DNA from: Calothrix brevissima NIES-22 | GTDB lineage: Bacteria > Cyanobacteriota > Cyanobacteriia > Cyanobacteriales > Nostocaceae | DNA: 64,000 bases | Assembly (NCBI RefSeq): GCF_002367995.1 | Contig: NZ_AP018207.1 | Location: 7,798,199 to 7,862,198, forward strand | Reading direction: 5' to 3' | In this document: in pieces, positions 1-34,782 of the stretch | Position numbering within the stretch: position 1 is the stretch's first letter | Layout of the letters: each line of letters opens with the position of its first letter | Made by a program: the position numbers and the translations under genes | The notes under the pieces: generated by a model | Database searches by the model: none | The model's input: only the letters and a program-made list of their open reading frames with translations | What the model was told of the DNA's origin: nothing

Positions 1-475
1 TAGAAGTCGCTACCTTCTGTCCTTTCAGTTCCGCAACAGAACGAGGGCCATCTTTTTTCGCCAATAACCAAGCATTGGTTCCTACTTGTTCTTGACCTAT
101 TAAGCGTGTGGGTAGTCCTTTAGCTTTCCCCACCAATGCGGGAGTATCCCCATAAATTCCTACATCCACTTCCCCAGCAACTAAAGCTTCATTCAAATTC
201 GGCCCGTTGGGGAAATTCAGCGTCTTAATTTCTGTAATCCCCAATTTTTGCAACTCTGGTAAAAGTTTACCTTGATGCATTGCCCAACCAGTCGGCCCGG
301 TGGGTGTTTTCACTTTACCGTTACTTATAAAACCTAAACGCAAGGTAGAAGTTTTAACTTCCGCCTTAGTTGTAGTTGCGGGATTGGGTACAGCTTGGGA
401 AACAGTTTGATTGGAACTGCAAGCCGTATTTAGAAATAACAAACTAGATATAGCTATAGTTGATAGTTTCAGCAT
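1..475 (-). CDS. Sulfonate/nitrate-type ABC transporter substrate-binding lipoprotein (partial, C-terminus outside window)
   Basis: Only the N-terminal ~158 codons lie in the window; the gene runs off the left edge. Translating the - strand from the ATG at 475 gives a short hydrophobic signal ending in LNTAC, a plausible lipobox with lipidated Cys19. A Ser/Thr/Pro-rich linker follows, then a periplasmic-binding fold with the family phrases LRLGFISNGKV, PTGWAMHQGKLLPEL, FPNGPNLNEALVAGEVDVG and ELKGQKVA. These are typical of SsuA/TauA/NrtA-like proteins that deliver alkanesulfonates or related oxyanions to an ABC permease. It is the third gene of a - strand run after the flavoprotein and the ferredoxin, which suggests joint expression. 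The ligand cannot be told from the sequence. Confidence 0.85.
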   Translation of the reverse strand, partial: MLKLSTIAISSLLFLNTACSSNQTVSQAVPNPATTTKAEVKTSTLRLGFISNGKVKTPTGPTGWAMHQGKLLPELQKLGITEIKTLNFPNGPNLNEALVAGEVDVGIYGDTPALVGKAKGLPTRLIGQEQVGTNAWLLAKKDGPRSVAELKGQKVATS

Positions 476-568
476 GAAAAACGAACCACAGAGACACAGA
501 GAACGCAGAGGAAAAAAACAATTACAGCAGATTGCCAGTTGGTGAAGTACAGATTATCGTTGATTGTA

Positions 569-592
569 GGGGCACTGGCAATGCCATGCCCC
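569..592. repeat. Dispersed GGGGCA-TGCCCC palindrome, copy 1
   Basis: Imperfect palindrome with arms GGGGCACTGGCA and TGCCATGCCCC, preceded by TTGTA. Related copies lie at 6590-6610 (inverted orientation) and 34839-34862. All three are intergenic. It is a dispersed repeat of unknown function that could form a hairpin in RNA. Confidence 0.7.
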
Positions 593-628
593 GAAGCACG
601 TACTTTGGACTCATCTTAATAGATTGTG

Positions 629-958
629 TTATTTCATCAGCTTCAGAACTTGGTGTGTAGAATCTTCTTGCGCAGAAGAAGTGCGATCGCGTCCCCAACC
701 AACATTTCTTCTATAACTTCCTAAAAGTTCAGCCTCTTTCAGCAATCTTTCATCTACAGCATCTAGAGGATCGACTTGTGGTGCTACATACAAAGCATCC
801 ACCGGACAGTACAATTCACACATAAAACAAGTTTGACAATCACTCTGTCTACCAATCGTCGGCGGTGCATCTGGTACTTTATCAAACACATTCGTCGGGC
901 AAACATTCACGCAAATATTACATTGAATACAGCGCGATGCACTAACTAACTCAATCAT
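629..958 (-). CDS. Small 2x[4Fe-4S] ferredoxin, AprB-like partner of the flavoprotein
   Basis: A 109-aa protein with two complete [4Fe-4S] motifs: C10-x2-C13-x2-C16-x3-C20-P and C41-x2-C44-x2-C47-x3-C51-P. A charged C-terminal tail of about 50 residues follows. The two-cluster ferredoxin is encoded directly downstream of a large FAD protein, as in the AprB/AprA layout of adenylylsulfate reductase, so it probably passes electrons to or from that flavoprotein. The family resemblance is to general bacterial dicluster ferredoxins; a true APS reductase role is not shown. The protein holds eight cluster cysteines and is not sulfur-sparing, unlike many neighbours. It lies between the flavoprotein and a sulfonate-binding protein gene on the same strand. 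Confidence 0.85.
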   Translation of the reverse strand: MIELVSASRCIQCNICVNVCPTNVFDKVPDAPPTIGRQSDCQTCFMCELYCPVDALYVAPQVDPLDAVDERLLKEAELLGSYRRNVGWGRDRTSSAQEDSTHQVLKLMK

Positions 959-1068
959 ACAATTTTAGATTTTGGATTTTGGATTTTAGATTGAGGAACG
1001 AGGCGCATTAGTCAAGAACTTTCATCTCTTCCTTTGCGCCTTTGCGTCTTTGCGTGAGAAAAAAATAA

Positions 1069-2712
1069 CTAAGAAGACACGCCTACCAATTCCTTCTCAC
1101 TCCCTAATCCCTCATTTCTCACCCAAACTTCGTCCAACCCACCACTAACTAAATAGTGCTGCTGATGAACATCCATCTCTGGAAAATCCAGATGCTTATG
1201 CATACCGCGAGTTTCTTTCCGTTCTAGGGCACTACTATACATCCATCGCGCTGTAGCCACCATTGCAGCAGCCTCCCGCAACTGAATAATATTCCGCCCA
1301 TCACCAGCTTGACTGCTACGAATTTCCTGCCAAAGATGATTTAACCTTTGCAACGATGCAGTTAAACCTTCTTGTTTGCGGAACAAATTGCGATCGTAAG
1401 GGAAAACTTCAGCCTGAGTAGCTTTAATCACCTCTTCCGCTTTAATTTGATGTTGGCTACCGCTAATCAATCCAGCTTCGCCCACAGCTTGTACAGGGCG
1501 TTGTTTTGTCCAATCTCCCAAATTTTTGGCATATTCCGCCGCCGATTTACCAGCCCAACAGCCGGAAGATATTGCCCAAGCTGCATTATGGCTACCACCA
1601 CCAGTAAAGCCGCCACAAATTAATTCTCTGGTAGCCGCATCCCCAGCTGCATAAAGTCCACGAACTGATGCAGCGCAGGTAGAATCAACAATTCTAATTC
1701 CACCTGTACCCCGAACTGTTCCTTCTAAACGCAAAGTTACGGGGAAGCGTTGGTTAAAGGGATCGATCCCGGCGCGATCAAATGGTAAGAAGAAATTCGG
1801 CTGTGCTTTACGCATGTGTACCTGCATATCTTCATTCGCCTGATCTAAGATGGCATACACAGGTTGAGTCAACAGCGTTTGAGCAATTACGGAACGCCCT
1901 CTTTGGGAACCCGCACCGGGGATTGGGGTGCCATCCTCGTATGTGAAAGTTGCCCAATTGTAAAATAGGGTTTTGGTAACTGAGGAAAAGGCGGGAGAGA
2001 TGCCATAAGCATTAGAAAATTCCATCCCTGACATCTCTGCACCCGCTTCTGCTGCCATGAGGTATCCATCCCCAGTCAGGACATTGCAACCTAAGGCTTT
2101 ACTCAAGAAAGCACAACCACCTGTTGCAATGATTACTGCACCAGCACGTACAACCCATTGTTTTCCAGTCTGGCGGTTAGTTCCTGTCGCCCCAGCAACT
2201 GCACCTTCTGCGTCTACTAATAATTGCAAGGCGGGGCTATTATCTAAAATTGTCACCCCTACCCGCTTGATTTGTTTCCGCATCAGGCGCATATATTCTG
2301 GCCCTTGGAGACTGCGCCGATAGGGTTTTCCCTCTTCATCCACCGGAAAAGGATAACCCCATTCGGCTAATAGGTTGACGTTGGTATATGTCTGATCTAG
2401 TACCCGATCCATCCAGGTACGATTGGCTAAAAATCCCCCCAAGGCTTCCCGACTGGCTTTTGCAGTTTCTCTCGCTTCTGCATCTGGCGGTACATACCAT
2501 ACGCCATTACCCGATGCTGCTGCACAACCACTCGTACCGCAGTAGCCCTTATCAACTAAAACCACCTTCGCGCCAGCAGATGCAGCACTCCAAGCAGCCC
2601 AAGTACCAGCTGGGCCGCCACCAATGACTAAAACATCTGTTTGCAAGTTGTGGTCAACATCAATATTAGATGTAGTAGATGAACTTTGCGATCGCCAATG
2701 GGGACTACTCAT
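1069..2712 (-). CDS. FAD-dependent oxidoreductase of the fumarate reductase/AprA-like flavoprotein family
   Basis: A 547-aa cytosolic flavoprotein. The N-terminus carries a Rossmann dinucleotide motif (VIGGGPAG, glycines 31-36), then a GTSGCAAASGNGVW segment typical of the succinate dehydrogenase/fumarate reductase/AprA superfamily. The C-terminal FAD-binding part reads GLYAAGDAATREL...GGFTGGGSHNAAWA. The start is supported by a GAGG element about 10 nt upstream of ATG 2712. It heads a - strand unit with the dicluster ferredoxin and a sulfonate SBP, and a candidate operator (2875-2902) lies 163 nt upstream. This context suggests oxidation or reduction of a sulfur compound, perhaps release of sulfite or processing of an imported organosulfur substrate. 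The substrate is unknown. Met and Cys content is ordinary. Confidence 0.8.
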   Translation of the reverse strand: MSSPHWRSQSSSTTSNIDVDHNLQTDVLVIGGGPAGTWAAWSAASAGAKVVLVDKGYCGTSGCAAASGNGVWYVPPDAEARETAKASREALGGFLANRTWMDRVLDQTYTNVNLLAEWGYPFPVDEEGKPYRRSLQGPEYMRLMRKQIKRVGVTILDNSPALQLLVDAEGAVAGATGTNRQTGKQWVVRAGAVIIATGGCAFLSKALGCNVLTGDGYLMAAEAGAEMSGMEFSNAYGISPAFSSVTKTLFYNWATFTYEDGTPIPGAGSQRGRSVIAQTLLTQPVYAILDQANEDMQVHMRKAQPNFFLPFDRAGIDPFNQRFPVTLRLEGTVRGTGGIRIVDSTCAASVRGLYAAGDAATRELICGGFTGGGSHNAAWAISSGCWAGKSAAEYAKNLGDWTKQRPVQAVGEAGLISGSQHQIKAEEVIKATQAEVFPYDRNLFRKQEGLTASLQRLNHLWQEIRSSQAGDGRNIIQLREAAAMVATARWMYSSALERKETRGMHKHLDFPEMDVHQQHYLVSGGLDEVWVRNEGLGSEKELVGVSS

Positions 2713-2874
2713 TGAATTCCTCGCCTCAATAATTAAACTTATGGACTACTTACTGAACTACAAAAAACTTTGATGATCGCGCATCAATAGACTAATTGCT
2801 AACTGCAAATATGGTCTATTGATCCAGTTAAGCGATACTTATTTTTGCAACACTGGGATTTACAATACCATAAA

Positions 2875-2902
2875 ATACGGTTAATCGGTCAAGTTACTGT
2901 AT
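2875..2902. promoter_or_regulatory. Candidate sulfur-regulon operator, site A
   Basis: ATACGGTTA, a 10-nt spacer (atcggtcaag), then TTACTGTAT. The arms match as an inverted repeat at 7 of 9 positions, and the symmetry continues one A/T pair outward. It lies 163 nt upstream of the flavoprotein start and follows the same arm-10-arm pattern as the sites at 6786, 8089, 24885 and 28201. Confidence 0.55.
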
Positions 2903-3134
2903 TTATTGTTAATTAAAGCCTTGCATAATTTTTTGTAAAAATCAAGAGGAGTTTTTATTAAAAGCGAAATTTTCTATCAAAAACTGGTATCTTAAGAAGA
3001 TAATCCCCTATTTAAACGCTTAAAACAGCAATTTTTAGCAAAAATATCGCTGTTATAGCGTTTTTTTAATTGCTAAAAATAATAAATATAAAATTAAATT
3101 TATAGTTTTTTATGAATTTTTATAAAAAATATAT

Positions 3135-3196: not shown

Positions 3197-3209
3197 GTTT
3201 TCCGCTTAA

Positions 3210-4250
3210 TTATGGTGCTGGATTAGGATAACGAGTATGAACTGCGTCTAACTCTGCTAAAATCTCTGGGTTAAGAACTACATTTACACTCTCGATGTTT
3301 TCTTGTAGTTGTTGTAAGGTTGTAGCACCAATAATTGTGCTGCTGACAAACCAGCGACTCCGCACAAAAGCTAAAGCTAATTGAGCAGGTGTTAAATTAT
3401 GTTTTTTGGCAATTTCCGCATAAGCTGCAACAGCTTCATTCACATTTTGTTTGAGATATCTTTGTCCAAAACCGGGAAATAGACTCAAGCGGGTATTTTC
3501 TGGGTTGTTACCATCGAGATACTTTCCACTTAACAAACCAAATCCTAATGGACTGTAGGCGAGTAAACCAACATTTGTGTAATGAGAAACTTCTGCTAAA
3601 GCGGAATCAAACACCCGATTGAGCAAATTATAAGCATTTTGGATGGAAACAACTTTCGGTAATCCTAATTTTTTTGCAACATGAACAAACTTAGTTATAC
3701 CCCAAGGAGTTTCATTACTCACACCAATATGGCGGACTTTACCTGCTTTAATCACATCTGCAAAGGCGGCTAATTGCTCAGAAAATGGTACAGTTTCTCG
3801 TTCTAACTCCGGTTTATACTCAGTTTGACCGAAAGTCGGCACATAGCGATCGGGCCAATGAATTTGGTACAAATCTATATAATCTGTTTGCAATCGCCTT
3901 AAACTATCATCTACAGCTTGCTGAATATTCTTACTATCAATTTTGATATTTCCATCGCGCAGCCATTTAAATGGACGACCAGGCCCAGCAATTTTTGTCG
4001 CCACAATCACTTTATCTCGCTGCTGTTTTCGCAACCATTCGCCAATATAAGCTTCTGTTTTTCCTTGGGTTTCGCCACGCGGTGGAACTGGGTACATTTC
4101 CGCCGCATCAAGAAAGTTGACCCCCTGCGCTACGGCATAGTCTAGCTGTTGATGGGCTTCTTCAATAGTATTTTGATGCCCGTAAGTCATGGTTCCTAAA
4201 CAAATTTCCGAAACCTTTAGGTCGCTGTCGCCGAGTTGGTTGTACTTCAT
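3210..4250 (-). CDS. tas: NADP(H)-dependent aldo/keto reductase, Tas family
   Basis: A 346-aa TIM-barrel oxidoreductase, the same length as E. coli Tas and collinear with it. Both share LDYAVAQG-N, AEMYPVPPR-ETQG-TE, SLKRLQTDY-like and GVSNET segments, and end in YPNPAP/YTYPAP. Catalytic tetrad candidates are D48, Y53, K86 and the His in YQIHWPDR near residue 131. The C-terminal cofactor segment ATTLQQLQENIES binds NADP(H). It is a cytosolic carbonyl reductase of unknown physiological substrate. It contains only three Met and one Cys in 346 residues, which is low but not zero. A candidate operator (4320-4347) lies 70 nt upstream. It is read away from the porin gene. Confidence 0.9.
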   Translation of the reverse strand: MKYNQLGDSDLKVSEICLGTMTYGHQNTIEEAHQQLDYAVAQGVNFLDAAEMYPVPPRGETQGKTEAYIGEWLRKQQRDKVIVATKIAGPGRPFKWLRDGNIKIDSKNIQQAVDDSLRRLQTDYIDLYQIHWPDRYVPTFGQTEYKPELERETVPFSEQLAAFADVIKAGKVRHIGVSNETPWGITKFVHVAKKLGLPKVVSIQNAYNLLNRVFDSALAEVSHYTNVGLLAYSPLGFGLLSGKYLDGNNPENTRLSLFPGFGQRYLKQNVNEAVAAYAEIAKKHNLTPAQLALAFVRSRWFVSSTIIGATTLQQLQENIESVNVVLNPEILAELDAVHTRYPNPAP

Positions 4251-4319
4251 AGTTATAGAACTAATTCTCTTAGTTACTTGGGCAAATCTGCAAGTAATAA
4301 AACGCCAAATCTAAATAAA

Positions 4320-4347
4320 ATACAAAAAAACTACCGATTTAGCGTAG
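4320..4347. promoter_or_regulatory. Candidate sulfur-regulon operator, site J (tas)
   Basis: ATACAAAAA, 10-nt spacer, TTAGCGTAG. The right arm matches the consensus TTACCGTAG at 8 of 9 positions and the left arm keeps ATAC. The 28-bp spacing is conserved. It is 70 nt upstream of the aldo/keto reductase start. Confidence 0.35.
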
Positions 4348-4489
4348 TTAATATCTAGGATACGTATATTACCAGACATTAATCTTAGTCACAAGCTTAT
4401 TTATTATTTTGATAAAAATATATTGTGTGTAGCCAAAAATACTATATCCCTACAGTTTTTCTGGAATACTGGTATCTAGTAAAATAAAA

Positions 4490-4517
4490 GTACTAAATTT
4501 CGACCGAATTACCGGAG
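4490..4517. promoter_or_regulatory. Candidate sulfur-regulon operator, site H (porin, weak)
   Basis: GTACTAAAT, spacer ttcgaccgaa, TTACCGGAG. The right arm keeps TTACCG and the spacer contains the CGACC core also seen at 33669-33696. It is 266 nt upstream of the porin start. The left arm is weak. Confidence 0.3.
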
Positions 4518-4782
4518 TATATATAAATAAGGTACTTCAGTCCTTGTTAAACGTTACTTTTCTCTTAGCTAATTTTTTGACTTTAAGAGAAAAAATAAAG
4601 TTTTGTTGCAGAAATTCCCGATAAAAATCTGGAGCCTGAATACAGATGCGAGCGCAATCTTAAAACTTTGATTGCATCGCCGGAGAGAATTTCAAGAAAT
4701 TTACCAATGCTGATGTCATCTGACTGATGCCAAGAAAATTGTAGAAGATTTGTCCTAGACCGAAATTGCGTGTTCTATCAAA

Positions 4783-6552
4783 ATGAAAAAGATTTTTGGA
4801 AATTCATTGCTAGCTTTACCAACGTTTCTAGTGCTGTTTTTATTAGCAGACAGCGCAAGAGTTTTTGCGCAAGATGTACCTGTACAAACATCACCACCTA
4901 CAGACAAAAATGCAGTTGAGGCTAATTTAACAACCCCAGCCAAGACAGATTCCTTGAGTCCTGTAGCACAAGTTCCAGTTGTACAACCTACTGCCTCAAC
5001 ACCCAATGACGATTTAGGACAAGTCACCTCTGTCTCTCAACTATCTGATGTTCAGCCTACAGATTGGGCTTTCCAGGCGCTACAGTCTTTAGTTGAACGC
5101 TATGGTGTAATTGCTGGATATCCTGACGGCACATTTAAAGGTAATCGCGCCCTCACAAGGTATGAATTTGCTGCTGGTTTAAATGCAGCCCTTGACCGCC
5201 TTAACGAATTGATTGCAACTAGTACAGCTGATTTAGTTAAGCGCGAAGACTTAGATACTCTACGAAAGCTGCAAGAACAATTTGCAGCTGAACTTGCAAC
5301 TTTAAGAGGACGAGTAGACTCCCTCGAAGCTCGTTCCGCCAAGTTAGAGGCTACGCAATTTTCTACAACTACCAAACTCCAAGGTTTAGCACAATTCTTT
5401 CTCGCAGATAGTTTTGGTAATCGCGTTGGTACTAATAGAGATGGTACCAATACTTTTTTAGGCTATCGTGCCACACTCGCCCTACAAACTAGCTTTACTG
5501 GCAAAGACCAGCTAACAACTAGCTTAACAGCATCCAACTTTGTGGCTTTAGGTGGTGCGACTGCTGTTGGTGGTACGCCGTTAACAGGAACTAACCAAAC
5601 CCGGTTTAATACAGAAAGAAGCACTGGTTATGCAGCAGATAATAATCTTTATCTCGATCGGTTGTTTTACCGCTTTCCGTTTGGGAAAAATACTACCGTT
5701 TGGATAGGTGCGAGGGCGCTACAACCGGTAACTTTTGCCCCTACTCTTAATCCCTTGGTTGGTAACGCCCAAACTGGTACCCTATCGCGCTTTGGACTTT
5801 TTAACCCTGTAATTTACCGACCTGGTTTTGACGGTGCTGGTTTAGCTTTTGCTCATAAATTTAGCAATCAACTGCAATTCAACGCCGGTTACATTTTTGA
5901 TGATGCTTTAGGTAGTAATCCTAGTGGAAACGCCACGAATGCAGGAGGATTATTTGGTAATTCTTATGAAGCTTTGGCGCAGTTAACCTTCTCGCCTAGT
6001 CGCAGTCTAGATATTAGTTTCGCCTACGCCCGCAAATATTTCCCGACTCCTGTATCTCCAGGCCCCGTTGGTTCAGTAACTGTCGCCCCTGGTTCTGGCT
6101 ATAACATTACTGGTGGTACAGGTACTGCTAACGCTGGTCGTCCTTTTGGTTTAGCACCCACTTCATCAGATAACTTTGGCTTGCAAGTTAACTGGAAGGC
6201 TAGTAGCGCATTCCATATAGGTGGGTGGTTTGGATATACCCAAGCCCATCAAGAAGGTACTAGCAATGATGCAACTATTATTAATGCAGCCTTGACTCTG
6301 GCGCTTCCAGATTTGGGTAAAAAAGGTAATTTAGCTGGGTTTGTCTTTGGCATACCGCCAAAAGTTACGAGTAATGATGTAGCTACCCGTAGGGATAATG
6401 ACACTTCTTTTCATATAGAGGGTTTTTACACCTATAGGTTCAATGACAACATTAGCGTTACGCCAACATTGTTTGTCATTACTAACCCAGAAGCAAACTC
6501 CAACAACGATCCGATTTGGGTAGGTGCTGTCCGTACTACCTTTACTTTTTAA
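4783..6552 (+). CDS. SLH-domain outer-membrane porin (OprB-like) with no sulfur in the mature protein
   Basis: A 589-aa porin of the cyanobacterial SLH-OprB/iron-uptake porin class. It has a signal peptide (1-29, cleavage after VFA), a Ser/Thr/Pro linker, an S-layer homology domain (about 88-150, YGVIAGYPDGTFKG and LTRYEFAAGLNAALDRL), a coiled coil (about 155-205) and a beta-barrel of about 380 residues with a terminal aromatic TFTF. The SLH domain normally binds peptidoglycan-linked polymer; the barrel passes small solutes across the outer membrane. I find no Cys and no Met other than M1, which the signal peptide removes, so the mature protein should contain no sulfur. It sits beside sulfonate uptake genes and probably serves as a low-sulfur replacement porin, perhaps also admitting sulfonates. 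That role is inferred. Confidence 0.92.
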   Translation: MKKIFGNSLLALPTFLVLFLLADSARVFAQDVPVQTSPPTDKNAVEANLTTPAKTDSLSPVAQVPVVQPTASTPNDDLGQVTSVSQLSDVQPTDWAFQALQSLVERYGVIAGYPDGTFKGNRALTRYEFAAGLNAALDRLNELIATSTADLVKREDLDTLRKLQEQFAAELATLRGRVDSLEARSAKLEATQFSTTTKLQGLAQFFLADSFGNRVGTNRDGTNTFLGYRATLALQTSFTGKDQLTTSLTASNFVALGGATAVGGTPLTGTNQTRFNTERSTGYAADNNLYLDRLFYRFPFGKNTTVWIGARALQPVTFAPTLNPLVGNAQTGTLSRFGLFNPVIYRPGFDGAGLAFAHKFSNQLQFNAGYIFDDALGSNPSGNATNAGGLFGNSYEALAQLTFSPSRSLDISFAYARKYFPTPVSPGPVGSVTVAPGSGYNITGGTGTANAGRPFGLAPTSSDNFGLQVNWKASSAFHIGGWFGYTQAHQEGTSNDATIINAALTLALPDLGKKGNLAGFVFGIPPKVTSNDVATRRDNDTSFHIEGFYTYRFNDNISVTPTLFVITNPEANSNNDPIWVGAVRTTFTF

Positions 6553-6610: not shown

Positions 6611-6785
6611 CTACAATCTCTGGCGTTCTTTTTTCAAATTAGGATGAATTTGCGACTTTATTTTGTCACAAAATCTTGATGTAATTACTTGCAAATTTTC
6701 ATCAATTTGGCACATTCCAGTTCTTTTATCTCTTACATCCTACAGTATTTGCAGTTTTACAGTTTTATTTTACCTAGTTCATAAA

Positions 6786-6813
6786 ATACGGTAAATTGAT
6801 AGACTTATCGTAT
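6786..6813. promoter_or_regulatory. Candidate sulfur-regulon operator, site B
   Basis: ATACGGTAA, spacer attgatagac, TTATCGTAT. The arms match at 8 of 9 positions. It ends only 31 nt before the start of the sulfonate-binding protein at 6845, so the protein would need a short leader. Confidence 0.6.
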
Positions 6814-6844
6814 AGGACAAATCTCAGATAGGTAAATTCTGGTA

Positions 6845-8005: not shown

Positions 8006-8088
8006 AAATTTTTATGACTTACTTTTGCAAATAGATATCAAGACTACTTGATTTTAACTGGTATTTATGAGAAATTTTGATTAATTAA

Positions 8089-8116
8089 ATACGGTAAATC
8101 TATAGAATTACAGTAG
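8089..8116. promoter_or_regulatory. Candidate sulfur-regulon operator, site C
   Basis: ATACGGTAA, spacer atctatagaa, TTACAGTAG. The left arm is identical to sites B and G. It lies 196 nt upstream of the haloperoxidase-like gene. Confidence 0.6.
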
Positions 8117-8311
8117 TTAAAAGTTTTGGGAAAAACTTGTTAGCTGTCAGAATGCGATCGCGCTTTTCATTACTAAACAACTACAGCCAAAGTTACCTTC
8201 CAGTAGTACCACCCCAGATTTTATCCCCAATCCAGTTGAAACAGCTCGTATTCAGAACTTGATCTCTGAATACAAACTTTTTATTTGATTCTTTGCCAGT
8301 GGAGACATCTC

Positions 8312-24833: not shown

Positions 24834-24884
24834 ACATCCTTGATTTCCATATCCATCTGTGTAATACTTTGAAGATGTCAGTAA

Positions 24885-24912: not shown

Positions 24913-24954
24913 TAAACAATAATCTGAATTTTGCAGCCACATTAAATAGGGATT

Positions 24955-26146: not shown

Positions 26147-26710
26147 ATGCCTCATATTTTAGCGATCGCAGGTAGTCCTTCCCATCCTTCCCGTACTTAC
26201 TCTTTACTAGAGTACGCTAGCAAAATCCTTGTACAGCAAGGGATCACCGTTGATATCATCTCCGTTCGCGATATTCCGGCGGAAGATTTGGCTTATGGAC
26301 GTTACGATAGTCCAGCTTTAGAAAAACCCAAAGCTATTTTAGAAAAAGCTGATGGCGTAATTATTGCTACACCAATTTATAAGGCAGCTTACACAGGTGT
26401 ATTAAAAGCTTTCTTAGATTTGTTACCTCAGAAATCTCTAGCGGGAAAAGTGGTATTACCTTTAGCTACAGGTGGGACAATCGCCCATTTATTAGCAATA
26501 GAATATGCCTTAAAACCTGTGCTATCAGAATTAGGAGCGCGGCACATTCTCAGTACTATCTATAGTGTAGATAAACAAATTCAAGTACAAGCTGATGGCT
26601 CTATTCAACTAGACGCAGAAATTGCCCAGAGATTGCAAGATGTACTTTCTGATTTAGTAACAGCAATCAATAGTTCGGCTGCAACAAAAGAAGTTGCTCA
26701 CGCCAACTAG
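26147..26710 (+). CDS. ssuE: NADPH-dependent FMN reductase of the alkanesulfonate system, Met/Cys-free after M1
   Basis: A 187-aa flavodoxin-fold reductase. The FMN phosphate loop is GSPSHPSRT, and PIYKAAYTGVLKAFLDLLP plus GKVVLPLATGGTIAHLLAIEYALKPVL match E. coli SsuE nearly residue for residue. It supplies reduced FMN to SsuD. AGGAG lies about 12 nt before the ATG, 31 nt after ssuD. It has no Cys and no Met beyond M1. E. coli SsuE is, as I recall its sequence, similarly poor, so this trait is shared within the family. A terminator follows at 26744. Confidence 0.95.
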   Translation: MPHILAIAGSPSHPSRTYSLLEYASKILVQQGITVDIISVRDIPAEDLAYGRYDSPALEKPKAILEKADGVIIATPIYKAAYTGVLKAFLDLLPQKSLAGKVVLPLATGGTIAHLLAIEYALKPVLSELGARHILSTIYSVDKQIQVQADGSIQLDAEIAQRLQDVLSDLVTAINSSAATKEVAHAN

Positions 26711-27022: not shown

Positions 27023-28075
27023 TTATTTTTTAGCTAACCTCTGAGGTGTAATAGCTTGTAGTGTACTTGTTGGAGGAATAGCATCACGAATGTTTACCTT
27101 GCGAGGAATGATTTTTTCTTGGAAATAGAAATCAGCAACCTGCTGTTGTTCAGCAATAATTGAAGGTGTTAATGGTCTTAATCGTCGAACAGTTCGGCGT
27201 GAAACTACTTCTAAAATTGATGGGTCAAGTTTTACTTCACCAGCCAGCGCTTTAGCAGCTTCAGCAGGGTTTTTATCAGCCCATTCTCCAACCTTATCTG
27301 CTTCGTCTAAAAACACTCGCACCAATTCTTGATTTTCCGAAACAAATTGCCTTCTAGCAATATAAAATCCGCCTAAAGTGTTAATACCGCCTGCATTTCT
27401 CAAATTACGAATAGGGATACTTTTCTCTACCAGAGCTAAAAATGGATCGCTAGCTACCCATACTTCAACTTTGTTTTGAATAAAGGCGTCGCGCGCTTCT
27501 GATGGTGTTAGACCAACAACTTGAACATCACTAATTTTGAGACCTACTTCTTTTAAAGCTCTTGCTAGTAAATAATGAGCATTCGAGCCTCTTTGAAAAG
27601 CAACTTTTTTACCTTTTATATCTGATAGCTTTTTAATGGGAGAATTTGCTCTTACCACAATGCCTTGATTTAGTCCTTTGCTAGGTCTGCGTCCAGCAAT
27701 ATAAACAACTTCTGTGATACCTGCGGCTTGGGCAAATATCGGAGGTGTTTCTCCTACAGTACCGATGTCAACTTTACCTGCATTTAGGGCTTCTATTAGT
27801 TGTGGCCCTGCGGGAAATGGCCCCACCCAATTTACCTTGACACCTAATGCTTGAAAACGCGGCTCTACAGATTTTCTAGCTTTGACTATATCCCCTGAAG
27901 TTTGATAAGCCAGGTTGATTACTTTTGACTTAAATCCACCAGTTTTTGTTTGTGCTTCACTACTTTGGATTGTACTGCCTGTCAAAGGTGCTGATAGAGC
28001 AAAAAATCCTACTAAGGTATATTGCACAATCCGTTTTAATGTAGTCCGCCGTTGTGGAAGAAATGGTATTTTCAT
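27023..28075 (-). CDS. Sulfonate ABC transporter substrate-binding protein with no sulfur in the mature form
   Basis: A 350-aa SsuA-family protein with a cleavable signal peptide (about 1-41, ending SSEA) and no lipobox Cys, so it should be a soluble periplasmic protein. The binding domain has FPAGPQLIEALNAGKVDIGTVGETPPIFAQAAG, DIKGKKVAFQRGSNAHYLLARAL and VEVWVASDPFLALVEK. I find M1 only and no Cys. After signal cleavage the mature protein should contain no sulfur. The other window copies keep the lipid-anchor Cys. It is read alone on the - strand with candidate operator E 126 nt upstream. The ligand is probably a sulfonate but could be another oxyanion or ester. Confidence 0.9.
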   Translation of the reverse strand: MKIPFLPQRRTTLKRIVQYTLVGFFALSAPLTGSTIQSSEAQTKTGGFKSKVINLAYQTSGDIVKARKSVEPRFQALGVKVNWVGPFPAGPQLIEALNAGKVDIGTVGETPPIFAQAAGITEVVYIAGRRPSKGLNQGIVVRANSPIKKLSDIKGKKVAFQRGSNAHYLLARALKEVGLKISDVQVVGLTPSEARDAFIQNKVEVWVASDPFLALVEKSIPIRNLRNAGGINTLGGFYIARRQFVSENQELVRVFLDEADKVGEWADKNPAEAAKALAGEVKLDPSILEVVSRRTVRRLRPLTPSIIAEQQQVADFYFQEKIIPRKVNIRDAIPPTSTLQAITPQRLAKK

Positions 28076-28514
28076 GACTGTAGAAACGAGCTATGGAATA
28101 ATTGCAAGATTTTTTTGCACCAATTAATTAGCTTTATAGCTATTAAATAAGTGCCTTTAGCTACGAGATTAATAGTAGATAAAAATAATTTTTATTTAAT
28201 CTACGTAAAATCGATTGAATTGCCGTAGTTTATATAAAAAGTTTTTCATAGTTTGAGATAAAATGCAAGCAGTAACGCAAATATTTATATTATGAATATT
28301 TTTTATTAGTAAAAAATAGAAAAAATTATGTGATATTTTTAATTACAGCTTTTTTATCTACAAAAAATTTAAATTAAAGTTGCCAGTAAGTGTAAATTAA
28401 CATCTCGATTGAGAGATAATTTGATTATTTGTCATGAAAAATTAGTAAATGATATAATTGTTTATTTTTAATAAAAAGTATTATAGTAATTTTTACGAAG
28501 TTGATAATTAGCAG
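28076..28514. other. Divergent intergenic region, 439 bp
   Basis: Very AT-rich. It carries candidate operator E (28201-28228) between the binding-protein gene and the small NrtS-like gene. No other feature is clear. Confidence 0.65.
28201..28228. promoter_or_regulatory. Candidate sulfur-regulon operator, site E
   Basis: CTACGTAAA, spacer atcgattgaa, TTGCCGTAG. The outer CTAC/GTAG pairs are perfect. It lies 126 nt upstream of the sulfur-free binding protein. Confidence 0.55.
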
Positions 28515-28978: not shown

Positions 28979-29578
28979 CTATACTGCAACGGCTGCTACT
29001 TTGTAATAAGCAGGTTCATTTCCCTGTTTCCATTTGATGTTGCAACCGATACTTGGCTTCTGTTCCCAAGTAATGACGCGATCGCGCGATACATCTTCAA
29101 TGGCTTTACGTAAATCCGCACCAGTCACGGGTTTATCGTTTTTAGGACGGCTATCATCCAACTGTCCGCGATAAGCCAGCTTGCGTGTTGCATCAAAGAG
29201 GAAAAAGTCAGGAGTGCAAGCAGCAAAGAAATTTTTCGCAGATTGCTGTGATTCGTCGTACAGCAGAGGATAGGACAAATCTATTTCTTGGGCAAAGGCT
29301 TTGAGCAATTCTGGCGCATCATCGGGATGGGTAGTGATATCGTTAGCGCTAATCGCCACAATTCCCAAATTGCGATCGCTATAATCTTTACCTATTTTCG
29401 CCAACTCCCATTTGATATGCTGCACAAACGGACAGTGGCGGCTGAGAAATATGACTAGCAGCGCTTTTTTATCAGCAAAATCAGCAAGTGAAACGATTTT
29501 ACCAGTAACAACATCTGGTAAATGAAAATCCGGTGCTAAAGTACCTAAAGGTAACATTGTTGAAGGCGTTAAGACCAT
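28979..29578 (-). CDS. Thioredoxin-fold peroxiredoxin-like protein (AhpC/TSA family)
   Basis: A 199-aa thioredoxin-fold protein. It begins like a peroxiredoxin (LGTLAPDFHLPDVVTGKIVSLADF) and has one Cys at the active-site position, C49 in SRHCPFVQH, plus C in AACTPDFFLFD and GCNIKW. The xTPDFFLFD segment with cis-Pro is typical of the thioredoxin-family/resA-like group found in cyanobacteria. It probably reduces peroxides or disulfides in the cytosol. It is last in a - strand run behind tauD, with an 80-nt gap filled by short tandem repeats. Sulfite release by upstream enzymes might make a redox protein useful here, which is inference. Confidence 0.8.
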   Translation of the reverse strand: MVLTPSTMLPLGTLAPDFHLPDVVTGKIVSLADFADKKALLVIFLSRHCPFVQHIKWELAKIGKDYSDRNLGIVAISANDITTHPDDAPELLKAFAQEIDLSYPLLYDESQQSAKNFFAACTPDFFLFDATRKLAYRGQLDDSRPKNDKPVTGADLRKAIEDVSRDRVITWEQKPSIGCNIKWKQGNEPAYYKVAAVAV

Positions 29579-29659: not shown

Positions 29660-30571
29660 TTAAACAGCAGCCAAGCTGGGGATGTATTGGGAAGAATTAC
29701 CTTTGATAGCTTTGCTTTGTTTACCGTTGACGCCGATGGGTAAATCGCCTGCGATGGTGACTCGTTGAACGTGACGAGGTTGGTTACCGTAATCGGCGAT
29801 CGCATAATGTTGGGTAGAACGGTTATCCCAAAATGCTACATCACCAACTTGCCAACGCCAGCGTACTGTATTCTCTGGACGAGTTATGTATGCTTGTAAC
29901 AGTCGGATAATATCGTCTGATTCCGTTGTCGATAACCCGCGAACCTGACGCACAAAACCACCAATAAATAAACCCTTTTCACCAGATTCTGGATGTACTC
30001 GCACTACTGGATGCAGAGTTTCATATACAGTTGAGGTGAATACATCACGGTAAGCTTTCACATCTTCGGGGAGATCCACCGCAGCGACAGCATAATCATA
30101 GGCGTTGCTATGTACTGCCCATAAATCATCCGCAAGAGTACGCAGATATTCTGGTAAATCTTGATATGCAGTCACAGAGTTTGCCCAAATAGTATCACCA
30201 CCAGCCGGAGGGATAACCAGGGCACGCAATACAGAACCAAGGGGAGGACGATCTACAAAAGTTACATCAGTATGCCAGGTGTTAGCGCGGGTAGCAGTTT
30301 TGCCATAATTCAGGTCAAGTACTTCTGGATGTCCGGGGAGTGAGGGTACAGTGGGGTGAGCTGTTGTCACTTCTCCAAAGCGGCGCGCAAAAGCGACTTG
30401 GCCATTAGCATCAAGTTGCTGGTTGCGGAAAAAGATGACTTTGTATTTAACTAAAGTCTTGCGGATATCACTGATAATATCGTCGCTGAGATTACGACTT
30501 AAATCGACGCCAACAATTTCCGCACCGATACGTCCCGCAACAGGTTGAATATCAAAGTGTTGAGAACCCAT
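29660..30571 (-). CDS. tauD: Taurine dioxygenase, Met/Cys-free after M1
   Basis: A 303-aa Fe(II)/2-oxoglutarate dioxygenase collinear with E. coli TauD. Iron ligands are H100-x-D102 (WHTDVTF) and H255 (TQHYAIADY); R266 and R270 in QPRHVQR match the 2-oxoglutarate and taurine sulfonate contacts, at the same numbering as in E. coli. It hydroxylates taurine at C1, giving aminoacetaldehyde and sulfite. A C-terminal extension of about 25 residues is unusual. It has no Cys and no Met besides M1. It follows the SBP gene at 30598 by 26 nt on the - strand, so the two are probably cotranscribed and the SBP may bind taurine. Confidence 0.93.
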   Translation of the reverse strand: MGSQHFDIQPVAGRIGAEIVGVDLSRNLSDDIISDIRKTLVKYKVIFFRNQQLDANGQVAFARRFGEVTTAHPTVPSLPGHPEVLDLNYGKTATRANTWHTDVTFVDRPPLGSVLRALVIPPAGGDTIWANSVTAYQDLPEYLRTLADDLWAVHSNAYDYAVAAVDLPEDVKAYRDVFTSTVYETLHPVVRVHPESGEKGLFIGGFVRQVRGLSTTESDDIIRLLQAYITRPENTVRWRWQVGDVAFWDNRSTQHYAIADYGNQPRHVQRVTIAGDLPIGVNGKQSKAIKGNSSQYIPSLAAV

Positions 30572-30597: not shown

Positions 30598-31686
30598 CTA
30601 TTTTTGGCTAATTGTTGGGGGAGTAATTGCTGCATACTGCTCATCTGTCAGCGTTGCTTCTTTGATATTGATTGGTTTAGGAATCAAACCATTTTTATGG
30701 AAGTAATCTGCAACTCGTTGTTGTTCGCTGATTAAATCTGGCGAAATTGCTCTTAATCCAAAACTCCGACGGCTAATTACCAAATCCATGACATCTGGCG
30801 GGAGTTTTTGGAATGGTAAAATTAGCTTGGCAGTATCCTTGGGATGTGCTTCTGCCCAACGCTCAATTTTATCAATTTCCTCAATCACAATCCGCAGCAG
30901 TTCAGGATTTTCTGTGGCAAATGGCTTAGAACCGATATAGTATCCGCCAGGAGAATCGAGTCCTTCACTAGTTTTAATTACCCGCGCTTTACCTAATTTT
31001 TCCGCTCGCGCTAAATGAGGATCGCCTGTTACCCAAACAGCAATTTTACCTTCGAGAAATGCACTCGCCGCTTCTACGTTAGGTATGCTAACAACTTGAA
31101 TATCACTATATTTTAAACCGGCTTCTTCCAATGCTCTGAGGATAAAATAGTGAGATGCAGAGGCTTTTTGAAAGACAACTTTTTGTCCTTTAATATCTTT
31201 GATACTCTTAATGGGAGAATCTGGAGGAACTGCGATCGCACTTCCTTTACCAGAATTTTCCGTCCGTCGCCGTCCCACAACATAAGCAATTTGAGCGCCG
31301 GCTGCTTGAGCAAAAATTGGCGGCGTTTCACCCACAGAACCCAAATCTATTTTGCCGACATTCATCGCTTCCATTAGCTGAGGGCCTTGGGCAAATTGTG
31401 CCCATTCTACCTTGACCCCCAAAGGTTCCAAGCGTTTTTCTAATACCTTGGTTACCCTCACCAAATCACCAGCTTGCTGATACCCCATCCGGAGTACTTT
31501 GGTTTTGATTTTTGAGGTATTAACATCCGCTACATTATTAGTCGGAGATTGGTTATCTGCTTTTTGGTTTTGTTGTGTACAACTAACTAACGTCAACGAA
31601 GTTGTTAAAGTTAACAATCCAGGGACAACAAGCAGTGTTAATCGACGAAAAATACTAATATATGCAGGTTTAACTGTGGCGGTCAT
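30598..31686 (-). CDS. Sulfonate/taurine ABC transporter substrate-binding lipoprotein
   Basis: A 362-aa SsuA/TauA-family protein with signal peptide and lipobox LVS-C36. The binding domain has FAQGPQLMEAMNVGKIDLGSVGETPPIFAQAAGA, DIKGQKVVFQKASASHYFILRAL and KIAVWVTGDPHLARAEK. It precedes tauD by 26 nt, which suggests taurine or a similar compound as ligand. Four internal Met and the lipid Cys remain, so it is less depleted than the copies at 20478 and 27023. No permease or ATPase adjoins it. The gene lies downstream of the amidohydrolase gene across 165 nt of tandem repeats. Confidence 0.9.
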   Translation of the reverse strand: MTATVKPAYISIFRRLTLLVVPGLLTLTTSLTLVSCTQQNQKADNQSPTNNVADVNTSKIKTKVLRMGYQQAGDLVRVTKVLEKRLEPLGVKVEWAQFAQGPQLMEAMNVGKIDLGSVGETPPIFAQAAGAQIAYVVGRRRTENSGKGSAIAVPPDSPIKSIKDIKGQKVVFQKASASHYFILRALEEAGLKYSDIQVVSIPNVEAASAFLEGKIAVWVTGDPHLARAEKLGKARVIKTSEGLDSPGGYYIGSKPFATENPELLRIVIEEIDKIERWAEAHPKDTAKLILPFQKLPPDVMDLVISRRSFGLRAISPDLISEQQRVADYFHKNGLIPKPINIKEATLTDEQYAAITPPTISQK

Positions 31687-31689
31687 AAG

Positions 31690-31860
31690 GGGCTAGGGGC
31701 TAGAGGCTAGGGGCTAGGAAGTAGACAAGGAGGACAAGGGGGATAAGGGAGACAAGGGAGACAAGGGAGACAAGGGGGACAAGGGAGACAAGGAGGACAA
31801 GGGAGACAAGGGGGACAAATGCCCAATGCCCCATGCCCCATGCCTCATGCCCTATGCCCG
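31690..31860. repeat. Compound tandem repeat (GGGGCTA, GGACAAGGR, GCCCCAT)
   Basis: Three unit types in series: GGGGCTA 7-mers (31690-31718), the 9-mer GGACAAGGR/GAGACAAGG (31723-31818) and GCCCCAT 7-mers (31820-31860). The last block overlaps the 3' end of the amidohydrolase gene and supplies its stop codon. Confidence 0.88.
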
Positions 31861-33330
31861 AGCTAAATATTCTTCTGCTTCTTTTTCAATGGCTGTTCCT
31901 TTGAAGAAGTCGCGGTTGAGGCTGGTGTACAACTCTAAAGGATGGGTAGACAGGAAGTAACGCAGGTCTTCTTCGCTGAGAATACCCCGTTCGACAAAGC
32001 TGTAAGCGTTGGCGGTAACTGCTGTAATATCAGGCACATCCCAGTGACCGGAATCGGAACCAAGGAAAGCTTTAACGCGATCGCCAAATGGGTTGGCTTT
32101 TTGATTGAAGGCGTAAGCAACCCGCAAATCGTCGGATTCTGTACCAAAGTAGAAGTGATTCAAAAAGCGATCGCGCACATCTTCGGCTTTGGTAATTCCC
32201 GCCGCCGCAAATTCATCTAATTCGCCTGGATCTTGAGGCGATAGATATTGACCGTGGAAGCCTAAACCGCTACCAAATTGATCCGCACGACCTTGGAATT
32301 CTGGGCCGCCATAACGATGGAAAAGTTCTGCTAAGGCTTCCCGATCTACATTGTTGGGATTGTTATTTTGTAAAATCTCTGGGTTGCGGGTTTCCCAATG
32401 CCAGATAATATCTGTGTATAGACTAGCACCCCAAGCTGAACCACCTTCGAGGAAGGCAAATTTTAATGTGGGGAAACGGCGGGTAACACCACCAAAAAAT
32501 AGGGCTTTGCAGAAGGCTTCGCCAGCAGAAGCAAAGTGTCCAATGTGGTTGTATTGATAATTGGAAATTGAGCGTCGTGAAGTCCAACCCATACCAGAGG
32601 CGTGGGTGGTAGGTACAACTTTCAACTCGACGCACTTCGCCCAGAAGGGATCGTAATCGTAAGCGCTATCTAAAGCAAAGGTATCTATCCAGGTTGCTTC
32701 TCTTTGCACTTCTTCCGAATATTTTTCAAAAGCTGGGATTGTGCGAGTGACGTAACCGGGAATTTGAATTGTTTTCAGCCCTAATACTTTAATTGCATAT
32801 TCCAATTCCTCAATTCCTTCTTCTGGGGTGTGCAAAGGAATTGTCGCGATGGGAGTGAGGCGATCGCTATAAGGACGGAAGATATCTGCATGATACAGGT
32901 TTGCTGCTCGGCAAACTGCTCGCCGCATTTCTTCATTTTTAATTTGTGGTGCGAGGGTTGCTAAGTTGGGGTACAACACAGCAAAGTCTGTACCCGCTTC
33001 TTGCAAGCGTTCGTGTAGTAACTTTGGCAGGGTAATTGTTGCTAAACTTAAGGTGTCTTTTGTAGGACGACCCCAAAAGGGTGGACGCGCAGTCCGATAG
33101 TTATGGCGTTCTTCCCAAGACTTTTGGAACCAACGAAAACGCCCAGCACCAGGTAAATGTTCTCTAAAGCTATCAACAATTTTAGAACCGCCTACCTGCT
33201 CTAAATAATCGAGAAAAGCAGGTTCAAATTCCTGGGTATGCACATCGGTATCGATGATGGAATATCCTAGTTGCTCCCGAATCTGTGCTGAACGAGTTTT
33301 CTTGGTAGGACGTTCTAGGGCAATTGTCAT
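31852..33330 (-). CDS. Amidohydrolase-family (amidohydrolase 2) metal-dependent hydrolase
   Basis: I chose ATG 33330 (492 aa) because GGAG lies about 8 nt upstream; a TTG 15 nt earlier extends the frame. The protein is a TIM-barrel hydrolase or decarboxylase of the PF04909 group. It starts with the metal-binding DTDVH motif, has GVTRRFPTLKFAFLEGG (a conserved barrel strand, usually including a metal/substrate residue), and ends with FGTESDD and FLGSDSGHWDVPD, where Asp of GSDSGHWD should be catalytic. The substrate is unknown. It leads the - strand run with SBP, tauD and the thioredoxin-fold gene, so it may process an organosulfur compound. Three Met and three Cys in 492 residues is low. Confidence 0.82.
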   Translation of the reverse strand: MTIALERPTKKTRSAQIREQLGYSIIDTDVHTQEFEPAFLDYLEQVGGSKIVDSFREHLPGAGRFRWFQKSWEERHNYRTARPPFWGRPTKDTLSLATITLPKLLHERLQEAGTDFAVLYPNLATLAPQIKNEEMRRAVCRAANLYHADIFRPYSDRLTPIATIPLHTPEEGIEELEYAIKVLGLKTIQIPGYVTRTIPAFEKYSEEVQREATWIDTFALDSAYDYDPFWAKCVELKVVPTTHASGMGWTSRRSISNYQYNHIGHFASAGEAFCKALFFGGVTRRFPTLKFAFLEGGSAWGASLYTDIIWHWETRNPEILQNNNPNNVDREALAELFHRYGGPEFQGRADQFGSGLGFHGQYLSPQDPGELDEFAAAGITKAEDVRDRFLNHFYFGTESDDLRVAYAFNQKANPFGDRVKAFLGSDSGHWDVPDITAVTANAYSFVERGILSEEDLRYFLSTHPLELYTSLNRDFFKGTAIEKEAEEYLARA

Positions 33331-33668
33331 GATTTTTCTCCACAATTACGTCATTCGTTGAATGTTGGCGGATGAAGTTTGAAAGAATGACTCAAAGGAT
33401 CGATCTGCCTGTTAAGAATAATGAAATAACAAGCTTCCTACAGAAGATGACTAGATATTTAATAACGCCTTAAATGTGCCTTATTTGTCTATAAACTGTA
33501 GAAATTAAGAGAATTCATTAGCGGGACACTCTTTCAAATCAAGATTTTGGGCAACAGCAACACCTTTTATGAAAACTTAGCGTTTTCATAAAATGTAAGT
33601 AGTTTTTGCTGAATTCTTTAAGTATTTACATAATTTTTCAGTGCAATATATGCATCAAAAAATATTAA

Positions 33669-33696
33669 ATACTGTTTATCGACCAATTTACCGTTG
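33669..33696. promoter_or_regulatory. Candidate sulfur-regulon operator, site F
   Basis: ATACTGTTT, spacer atcgaccaat, TTACCGTTG. It lies 339 nt upstream of the amidohydrolase start and would serve the - strand operon. Confidence 0.45.
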
Positions 33697-33872
33697 ATTA
33701 TCTAAGCAGTATTGCATAACCGCAACGAGAATACAAGCCTCCAGTAATCAAAGTATACGTAGCCCTAAAAATATTGTTTTCTAATAATTAGATAACCTAA
33801 TCTTATAAGAAACTCTTGTTTCATTAGCCATAGAAGTCTTTTCCAGGTGTTGACAAAATCATCTTTAATATT

Positions 33873-33900
33873 ATACGGTAAGACGAGCGAGTAACCGGGC
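33873..33900. promoter_or_regulatory. Candidate sulfur-regulon operator, site G (GST)
   Basis: ATACGGTAA, spacer gacgagcgag, TAACCGGGC. The left arm is a perfect consensus copy; the right arm is degenerate. It lies upstream of the GST gene, separated from it by a MITE-like element. Confidence 0.45.
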
Positions 33901-33911
33901 TTTGTAATTGG

Positions 33912-34021
33912 CTAGTAGTCTGTCCCATTAATTCTGATGAGTCACGGATGTTCAGATCCCCGACTTCTTCAAGAAGTCGGGGATCTCGCAGCACCGCAAA
34001 ATTAATGAGACAAAGCACTAG
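33912..34021. mobile_element. MITE-like element carrying the GATCCCCGACTTCTT palindrome
   Basis: Ends CTAGTAGTCTGTCCC and GAGACAAAGCACTAG, extended by ATTAATT/AATTAAT pairing, resemble the ends of the element at 15589-15697. The centre is the perfect palindrome 33954-33986, identical in its arms to 7973-8005. It sits 12 bp after operator G and 77 bp before the GST start. Confidence 0.7.
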
Positions 34022-34098
34022 TGTAAATACCAGCCAAAGCGATTAAAAAATTCATCATCTCCCATACCAAATCATCAACAACACAAGGAAAGCAATTT

Positions 34099-34782
34099 AT
34101 GAGTAACCTAAAGCTTTACTTTGCCAAAGCCTCGACTTTCTCCCAAAGAACCCGCGTGGTGTTGCTAGAAAAAGGAATTGAGTTTACCCCGATTGAAATT
34201 GACTTACAAAATAAGCCAGAAGGTTACACGCAGATTTCCCGCTATGGAAAAGTGCCGGCGATCGCGCATGGAGATGTAGAGATTTATGAATCTGCCGTTA
34301 TTAATGAATATTTAGAAGAAGTCTTTCCAGAGCCAGCTTTATTACCCAAGGAACCGGGAGAAAAAGCGATCGCGCGGATTTGGATTGACTACGCTAATAC
34401 TCGCTTTGTCCCGGCGTTTAACAAATTGCTACGCGGTAAAGATAGCACTGAACAAGAACTTGGACATAGAGAGTTTATCGAATCCCTCTTATATATAGAG
34501 CAAGAAGGATTAGGTAAGCTGTCTGGAAACGGGCCTTACTGGTTAGGAGACAAGGTAAGCTTAGTGGATATCAGCTTCTATCCTTGGTTTGAACGCTTAC
34601 CCCTGCTCGAACACTTCCGCAAGTTTAGCCTTCCAGCAGAAACACCGCGTATTCAACAATGGTGGAACACATTACGCGATCGCGAATCAATTAAAGCAGT
34701 AGAAAATCCTCTCAGCTTCTACATTGAAAGATTTAGTAAAGTGCTTGGCGAACCTACCGCAGTTGGTGCAGCACAAAAATAG
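34099..34782 (+). CDS. Glutathione S-transferase family protein, Met/Cys-free after M1
   Basis: A 227-aa cytosolic GST. The N-terminal thioredoxin-like domain has [24 protein letters not shown], the cis-Pro loop GKVPAI and the glutathione gamma-Glu contact [10 protein letters not shown] (E-S). The C-terminal helical domain has the N-capping motif [15 protein letters not shown]. The residue in the catalytic position is Ser12 (ASTFSQR), where omega/beta-like relatives carry Cys and tau-class enzymes carry Ser. There is no Cys and no Met beyond M1. It may conjugate or reduce substrates with glutathione, itself a sulfur compound. It is monocistronic, with AAGG-type ribosome binding upstream. It is the last sulfur-depleted gene before the NRPS cluster. 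Confidence 0.87.

Follow-up and report, generated by a model that had tools for sequence, protein, structure and literature searches.

A probable dispersed organosulfur gene set encoding many proteins without methionine and cysteine in Calothrix brevissima NIES-22, probably controlled separately from Cpc3

Why should one part of a cyanobacterial chromosome encode a porin, antenna linkers, and sulfonate-related enzymes that contain, beyond the initiator, neither methionine (Met) nor cysteine (Cys)? The question arises from a 64,000-nucleotide stretch of Calothrix brevissima NIES-22 (the window; chromosomal positions 7798199-7862198, G000:C1, in a genome of 9.26 Mb). An initial annotation read the left part of this window as an island-scale depletion with a sharp right border, and proposed a coordinated sulfur-sparing programme larger than Cpc3. 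Our answer, to which we give a probability of about 0.8, is that genes for scavenging organic sulfur form a set dispersed over at least three loci, of which the window is one; that many of their products have been stripped of Met and Cys; and that Cpc3 is controlled separately.

Elemental sparing by Cpc3 in Tolypothrix/Calothrix PCC 7601 was reportedly described by Mazel and Marliere in 1989 and by Gutu et al. in 2011, and cyanobacterial sulfur sparing is known mainly from this single operon. A further paper, which cites both studies, likewise treats Cpc3 sparing as already known (PMC4424289). Were a wider set real, composition and operator together would provide a genome-readable list of a phototroph's products when sulfate runs out. 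Whether elemental cost shapes protein sequence could then be tested directly, by comparing across many genomes those members of a family that have the operator with those that lack it.

Met plus Cys counts given here exclude the initiator, and rates are per 100 residues. Eight proteins of 187-589 amino acids (aa) encoded left of 34,790, plus the 70-aa CpcD3, contain no Met or Cys; they are those listed in the initial annotation: the porin, two linkers, CpcD3, TauD-family proteins of 287 and 303 aa, SsuE, the binding protein at 27023, and a glutathione S-transferase (GST). Its residual Cys counts also agree with ours (bromoperoxidase, 1 in 606; CpcB3, 2; CpcA3, 1); those of CpcB3 and CpcA3 are presumably the chromophore sites. 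Background was taken from 40 stretches of 20 kb of the same genome (Met 1.48%, Cys 0.91%), two of which (L033 and L034) were removed upon being found to lie in the loci C and B described below, leaving 38. The genome is not equally low throughout: open reading frames (ORFs) of at least 180 aa without Met or Cys number 8 of 22 left of 34,790, as against 5 of 375 in background (Fisher, 2e-8). Mann-Whitney comparison of content with background gives 1e-6 for the left part of the window, 3e-7 for locus C, and 6e-5 for locus B, the latter two values being descriptive because those regions were found through their content. The depletion in the left part is thus more than chance.

Genes for importing and using sulfonates mark the left part. 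It encodes SsuD and SsuE together with two TauD-family dioxygenases and four binding proteins of the SsuA family, along with an ABC ATPase and permease, an OprB porin, a vanadium bromoperoxidase-like protein, and the cpc3 operon. SsuD scores above its NCBIfam equivalog cut-off and the four binding proteins above the SsuA_fam cut-off; the nearest match to SsuE among solved proteins is SsuE; and both TauD proteins match the TauD Pfam model, with scores below cut-off for the taurine dioxygenase model. The genes are as follows (counts are Met plus Cys unless specified).

2..475, minus strand: NMT1-family substrate-binding protein, truncated by the window edge (whole gene 347 aa, 3 Met and 1 Cys)
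629..958, minus strand: 4Fe-4S ferredoxin-like protein, Cys-rich and undepleted (8 Cys in 109 aa; Fer4 match)
1069..2712, minus strand: fumarate-reductase-like flavoprotein, ordinary (19 in 547; the NCBIfam matches shown are all below cut-off)
3210..4250, minus strand: aldo-keto reductase (3 in 346)
4783..6552, plus strand: OprB/SLH porin (0 in 589)
6845..7942, plus strand: SsuA-family binding protein (6 in 365)
8312..10132, plus strand: vanadium-dependent bromoperoxidase-like protein (from the ATG at 8312, 0 Met and 1 Cys in 606)
12139..12660, plus strand: CpcB3 (0 Met, 2 Cys)
12780..13271, plus strand: CpcA3 (0 Met, 1 Cys)
13749..14564, plus strand: CpcH3 rod linker (0 in 271)
14705..15571, plus strand: CpcI3 rod linker (0 in 288)
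15784..15996, plus strand: CpcD3 small linker (0 in 70)
16530..17348, plus strand: nitroreductase-family protein (5 in 272)
18846..19646, plus strand: ABC ATPase (labelled ssuB), ordinary (7)
20478..21605, plus strand: SsuA-family binding protein (3 in 375)
21725..22588, plus strand: TauD-family dioxygenase (0 in 287), substrate class putative (taurine dioxygenase model, 144.9 of 313 bits)
22695..23513, plus strand: methyltransferase (4 in 272)
23675..24577, plus strand: ABC permease (labelled ssuC), ordinary (9 Met)
24955..26115, plus strand: SsuD alkanesulfonate monooxygenase (8 in 386; over the equivalog cut-off)
26147..26710, plus strand: SsuE FMN reductase (0 in 187)
27023..28075, minus strand: SsuA-family binding protein (0 in 350)
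28979..29578, minus strand: peroxiredoxin/thioredoxin-fold-like protein (4 in 199; weak matches, below cut-off)
29660..30571, minus strand: TauD-family dioxygenase (0 in 303; taurine dioxygenase model, 269.6 of 313 bits)
30598..31686, minus strand: SsuA-family binding protein (5 in 362)
31852..33345, minus strand: amidohydrolase-family protein (6 in 497)
34099..34782, plus strand: GST-family protein (0 in 227)

Depletion proceeds gene by gene rather than on the scale of an island. Among the 24 ORFs of at least 140 aa left of 34,790, 8 have neither residue and 15 have at least 2; a rate of 1.2 per 100 is reached or exceeded in 11. Ordinary genes stand among the depleted ones: those for the flavoprotein (19), permease (9), SsuD (8), ATPase (7), and methyltransferase (4). 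Content right of 34879 is ordinary, as first described (1.55-4.98 per 100 in five complete ORFs), and gene content does change at this border; the border does not delimit the phenomenon, however, because low-content genes recur at other loci in the genome.

One background stretch held a GST gene free of Met and Cys codons together with low monooxygenase-type genes, and searching by protein family brought up another region. ORFs of at least 180 aa without Met or Cys number 2 of 15 in locus B (0.72-0.74 Mb) and 8 of 37 in locus C (0.25-0.30 Mb). Locus C proteins without either residue include an acyl-CoA-dehydrogenase-family protein (395 aa), a luciferase-like monooxygenase (366), a hydroxyacid dehydrogenase (317), a TauD protein (320), a class II aldolase-family protein (259; another has 1 in 253), and a nitroreductase-family protein (201). 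O-acetylhomoserine sulfhydrylase, encoded in the same locus, has 2 in 436. The trait is spread over at least three chromosomal loci and is not one island.

What do these loci share? Conserved blocks in congeneric promoters yielded a common core and then a 30-bp pseudo-palindrome of about AATACnGTAAnTCGATCGATTTACCGTAGT, here termed the sulfur box. Ten sites, all found by matrix, lie in the window:

2874..2903, minus strand: upstream of the flavoprotein gene
4319..4348, plus strand: between the aldo-keto reductase and porin genes
4489..4518, plus strand: between the aldo-keto reductase and porin genes; conserved congeneric block
6785..6814, minus strand: upstream of an SsuA-family binding protein gene
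8088..8117, minus strand: upstream of the bromoperoxidase gene
18483..18512, plus strand: upstream of the ABC ATPase gene; conserved congeneric block
24884..24913, minus strand: upstream of ssuD
28200..28229, plus strand: upstream of the 27023 binding protein gene
33668..33697, plus strand: between the amidohydrolase and GST genes
33872..33901, minus strand: between the amidohydrolase and GST genes; weak, and in the background range when held out

All ten score at least 15 bits and lie left of 34 kb; column-permuted matrices find 0.06 on average and at most 1 (200 permutations). Since these ten belong to the 24 training sites, a matrix was also built from the 14 sites that lie elsewhere. It scores nine window sites at 23.8-33.8 and the tenth, at 33872, at 14.1, compared with 17.3 for the best of the 38 background stretches. 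Leave-one-out scoring of the first 11 sites places nine at 22.8 or above, with the GST site at 33874 and the locus C nitroreductase site at 279548 in the background range. A fixed consensus with at most three mismatches gives 15 matches at 9 places, against 1.64 in shuffles; seven places are among the ten, and the other two (26094 and 57609) are not matrix sites. No site of at least 13 bits occurs in window positions 34879-63998. In each of five congeneric genomes, between five and seven of these sites are found again by the corresponding genes; for the remaining sites, the genes are missing from those genomes or the sequence ends there. Because the genes lie in several regions, most of them marked by this shared box, the trait is apparently one of a gene set responding to sulfur; coordination of that set is suggested by the box.

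Scanning the genome with a model of 24 sites from organosulfur loci gave 41 distinct sites of at least 13.7 bits (E below 1): 10 in the window, 20 in loci B and C and three further regions with binding-protein genes, and 11 elsewhere. Several of these last 11 mark sulfur genes outside the training set. One precedes the gene for a sulfate-binding protein, with those for CysT and CysW behind it, and two lie in the promoter shared by Rrf2-cysK and cysE; others are at a Crp-family gene and at genes for a permease of the TauE/SafE type, a protein of the arylsulfotransferase family, and a sulfur-transferase-like protein. A second TauE/SafE permease gene is preceded by a site of only 12.7 bits. In one of the three binding-protein regions, an untrained site stands ahead of a mercaptopyruvate-sulfurtransferase-like gene. 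Sites at 123104, 4428066, and 5126458, and one at an MgtC-family gene, have no evident link to sulfur. The last is a membrane protein gene (G000:C1:2786515-2787051, by family match) with counterparts, assigned by eye, behind a sulfur box at G031:C1:1364067-1364597 and adjoining one at G148:C40:32071-32574; it may be a conserved regulon member. Also seen in sulfur-box regions of two genera was a short-chain dehydrogenase/reductase-like protein (266 aa, assigned by eye; no Met or Cys), encoded at G000:C1:6289129-6289929 and G031:C1:1371207-1372007.

Across the order, 19 of 60 genomes, including this one, have a dyad match at E of 0.05 or lower, of which about three matches could be due to chance. 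Fourteen of 25 sites from other genomes lie near a homologue of the reference set (genes of this genome at loci A-C, A being the window, and at untrained sites), seven of these near a Crp-like gene.

Is the depletion a property of the proteins or of the DNA? Composition was examined in 25 low proteins; as these were picked for having at most one Met or Cys, only their other residues and off-frame codons count as a test. Off-frame ATG and TGY are near background, as is GC content; Trp (1.69 against 1.35%), Tyr (3.33 against 3.07%), and His (2.57 against 1.80%) are not depleted, nor is Phe reduced. This argues for sulfur sparing at the protein level. Neutral drift or regional avoidance of ATG and TGY in the DNA is hardly credible: the off-frame codons are undepleted, by which DNA-level avoidance is rejected, and ordinary genes are interspersed with the depleted ones. 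The same residues bear on oxidation avoidance, by which Met and Cys would have been lost from proteins that meet oxidants (the bromoperoxidase product, flavin and iron/2-oxoglutarate oxygenases, the envelope). A vanadium bromoperoxidase is indeed in the set, and several depleted proteins are envelope proteins or redox enzymes. Yet oxidation-prone Trp, Tyr, and His are not reduced, phycocyanin linkers are depleted equally, and SsuD and the flavoprotein retain Met and Cys. We reject this explanation on account of the undepleted Trp, Tyr, and His, and regard it as improbable.

Alternatively, poverty in Met and Cys might simply come with these families, or with an origin of the genes in other bacteria. 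Four TauD proteins of one type in this genome (287-322 aa) contain neither residue, whereas the other two TauD-domain proteins contain 9 in 348 and 26 in 783. Of the 29 best-scoring loci from other genomes of the family, 26 were used (L285, a short ORF without class, and the multidomain L305 and L309 were left out): proteins of the first type, labelled sulfonate-type after a putative substrate, range from 0 to 0.69 per 100 (n = 22, 76-94% identical; 13 at zero), and single-domain proteins of the other type from 3.3 to 4.1 (n = 4). Most of these genomes have no close cpc3 linker. Five other FMN-reductase-family proteins have 1.08-5.49 per 100, and 12 of 16 GST-family proteins have at least 1.22. 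Family members in other contexts keep Met and Cys among the TauD and FMN-reductase proteins and in most GSTs.

OprB porins, by comparison, are low overall. The 11 paralogues of this genome have 0.34-2.17 per 100 (a further match, L088, in which no ORF was called, was dropped), and 75 homologues without the dyad have 0.51-2.73 (79 of 80 porin loci analysed; L223 left out). The chance that a 589-aa porin would lack both residues is 6e-7 at the background rate and 0.0016 at the paralogues' 1.08%, so that family explains part of the window porin's low content; one GST outside the loci is low as well. The window porin is nonetheless the lowest of 12, and GC content is near background. As a full account the family effect is rejected because same-family paralogues keep Met and Cys, and we consider it very improbable.

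Against the organosulfur gene set with stripped proteins, several observations must be weighed. The GST-family protein just mentioned (near 1610062, at 1.61 Mb; L100) has 1 Met or Cys in 263 and lies outside the described loci. Genes directly behind an untrained dyad (n = 20) have a median of 1.58 as against 2.51 per 100 (p 0.025), a mildly positive outcome, and only 3 of the 20 are at or below 1.0. Four porins with the dyad come from named genomes: two lack both residues, whereas the others contain 6 and 7; a count of 6 is also found for the porin of G031. The dyad marks a regulon, and does not by itself predict depletion. Substitutions into Met or Cys are rarer in the low set (15 of 2738) than in ordinary flanking genes of other genomes (23 of 1187; p 1e-4), but not significantly so compared with genes of the same island (14 of 1806; p 0.35); this line is weak because significance is reached only against the former. 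Finally, the cpcB3 promoter carries no dyad (best score -5.6; -4.1 with another matrix), so the dyad and the antenna need not form one programme.

How, then, does Cpc3 fit? CpcB3 and CpcA3 without Met and with few Cys, and rod linkers without either, are features shared with Cpc3 of PCC 7601, which is the system found in the window. Here, however, depletion extends to the porin, binding protein, TauD-type protein, SsuE, GST, and two more loci, and no dyad stands at the Cpc3 promoter. In other genera, five genomes were examined over 40 kb each: their cpc3 has unrelated neighbours, and the dyads there are not strong (13.7 at best). Conversely, G031, of another genus and without a close cpc3 linker, has the gene order of the window: aldo-keto reductase, porin, nitroreductase, ssuB, binding protein, TauD, second binding protein, ssuC, ssuD, and ssuE. 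Dyads lie between these genes, and the TauD and SsuE proteins lack Met and Cys; the sulfonate island thus exists without Cpc3. Within this genus, the sulfonate island encloses Cpc3, except in G088, where the two lie about 4-8 kb apart. (Upstream of the displaced cpc3 of G088, at joined coordinates 9671-11395, is a gene for a 574-aa protein with a single Met.) The dyad-free promoter and the occurrence of Cpc3 alone in other genera indicate two modules. The early idea of a sulfur-sparing programme beyond Cpc3 gains from the other loci, the paralogues, the genera without close Cpc3, and the shared dyad; its confinement to a single island does not hold.

These observations suggest a model for the organosulfur gene set. 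At low sulfate, a common regulator acting at the 30-bp dyad would switch on the porin, periplasmic binding proteins, and enzymes presumed to open sulfonates (SsuDE, TauD-type proteins, luciferase-like monooxygenases, and accessory oxidoreductases). Ordinary phycocyanin would give way to the Cpc3 antenna, which is under separate control. As the soluble and envelope proteins, plausibly abundant, are needed just when Met and Cys are in shortest supply, selection may have stripped these residues from many of them and may still keep them out. Permeases, ATPases, regulators, and Fe-S proteins were left unstripped, membrane and regulatory proteins being spared. By a slight margin of belief we favour a broader form: that the operator, conserved in the order, marks a dispersed sulfur regulon; that in the family this became an almost sulfur-free emergency proteome under continuing selection; and that Cpc3 joined later and independently.

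We think that a sulfur-sensing regulator binds the dyad, and co-occurrence leaves two candidates: a Crp-like (CysR-like) and an Rrf2 (CymR-like) protein. The dyad lies directly upstream of the Crp-like gene in this genome and in G031, G159, G166, G186, and G192. Crp-like matches at E of 1e-49 or lower, a threshold set after the table was seen, occur in 17 of 19 dyad genomes against 5 of 41 others (this genome included; counts uncorrected for relatedness). CysR belongs to the Crp family. The Crp-like protein falls in the Crp/Fnr family, with PtrA (88.7 bits) and NtcA (52.4 bits), both below cut-off, as the best NCBIfam matches; no CysR model is among the best matches listed. Rrf2 amino-terminal matches, which include other Rrf2 proteins, occur in all 19 dyad genomes and in 18 of the 41 others, counted likewise, the match in G184 being marginal and interrupted by a stop. 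The Rrf2 protein exceeds the Rrf2 superfamily cut-off (113.8 against 73.3 bits) and stays below that for CymR (90.8 against 195). Its gene lies beside cysK with a dyad at the promoter in this genome and G164; in G031 the dyad is present and cysK is not adjacent, and in G177 and G145 the Rrf2-cysK pair has no dyad directly upstream. Ssu and Tau systems are under LysR-type control by Cbl and CysB, and a LysR gene at 7902977 has a weak dyad match. A cis element and two candidate regulators are offered here for sulfur control in filamentous cyanobacteria.

Precedents exist for both candidates and for the composition. CymR with CysK of the Firmicutes (PMC2940859) resembles the Rrf2 gene in tandem with cysK and with a dyad at its own promoter; unlike there, the CymR score is below cut-off, the phylum is another, and binding is predicted. 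The CysR regulon of Synechococcus elongatus (PMC12016511) is paralleled by the Crp-family gene with a dyad upstream and by dyad-bearing sulfate transporter genes; a search of that paper by selected terms turned up no CysR binding site, and the gene here is a putative cysR counterpart. In Rhodococcus qingshengii on organic sulfur, abundant sulfur-acquisition proteins are poor in Cys and Met and MetY lacks Cys, which was read as sulfur sparing (PMC8557817). Low Cys and Met in sulfur-acquisition proteins is common to both, whereas the present organism is a phototroph, with many proteins wholly free of both residues, a porin and antenna among them, and a dyad linking loci. Other cyanobacterial low-sulfur proteins, or this dyad, were not found in the literature, most subscription papers being beyond reach. 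As far as that search goes, proteins free of Met and Cys are new for cyanobacteria in the case of the porin, the TauD type, SsuE, and locus C; also new are the TauD pattern across the family and the dyad.

Further features were seen along the way. The fumarate-reductase-like flavoprotein, ordinary or high in Met and Cys, recurs near binding-protein genes at three loci (window 629-2712, G000:C1:303472-305450, and G000:C1:6300113-6301756), accompanied by a small ferredoxin in the window and locus C. A TetR-like gene (by eye) lies right of ssuE in three congeneric genomes (G133, G108, and G003) and is absent from the window. Between the binding protein and peroxiredoxin-like genes, at window 28769-29113, is an ORF with a long GGQ repeat (simple-sequence DNA). 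Abutting the sulfur genes, positions 34879-63998 hold large genes that look by eye to be of nonribosomal peptide synthetase type. Their products have 2854, 3024, and over 2844 aa, and between them stand two further genes, one glycosyltransferase-like and one short-chain dehydrogenase/reductase-like.

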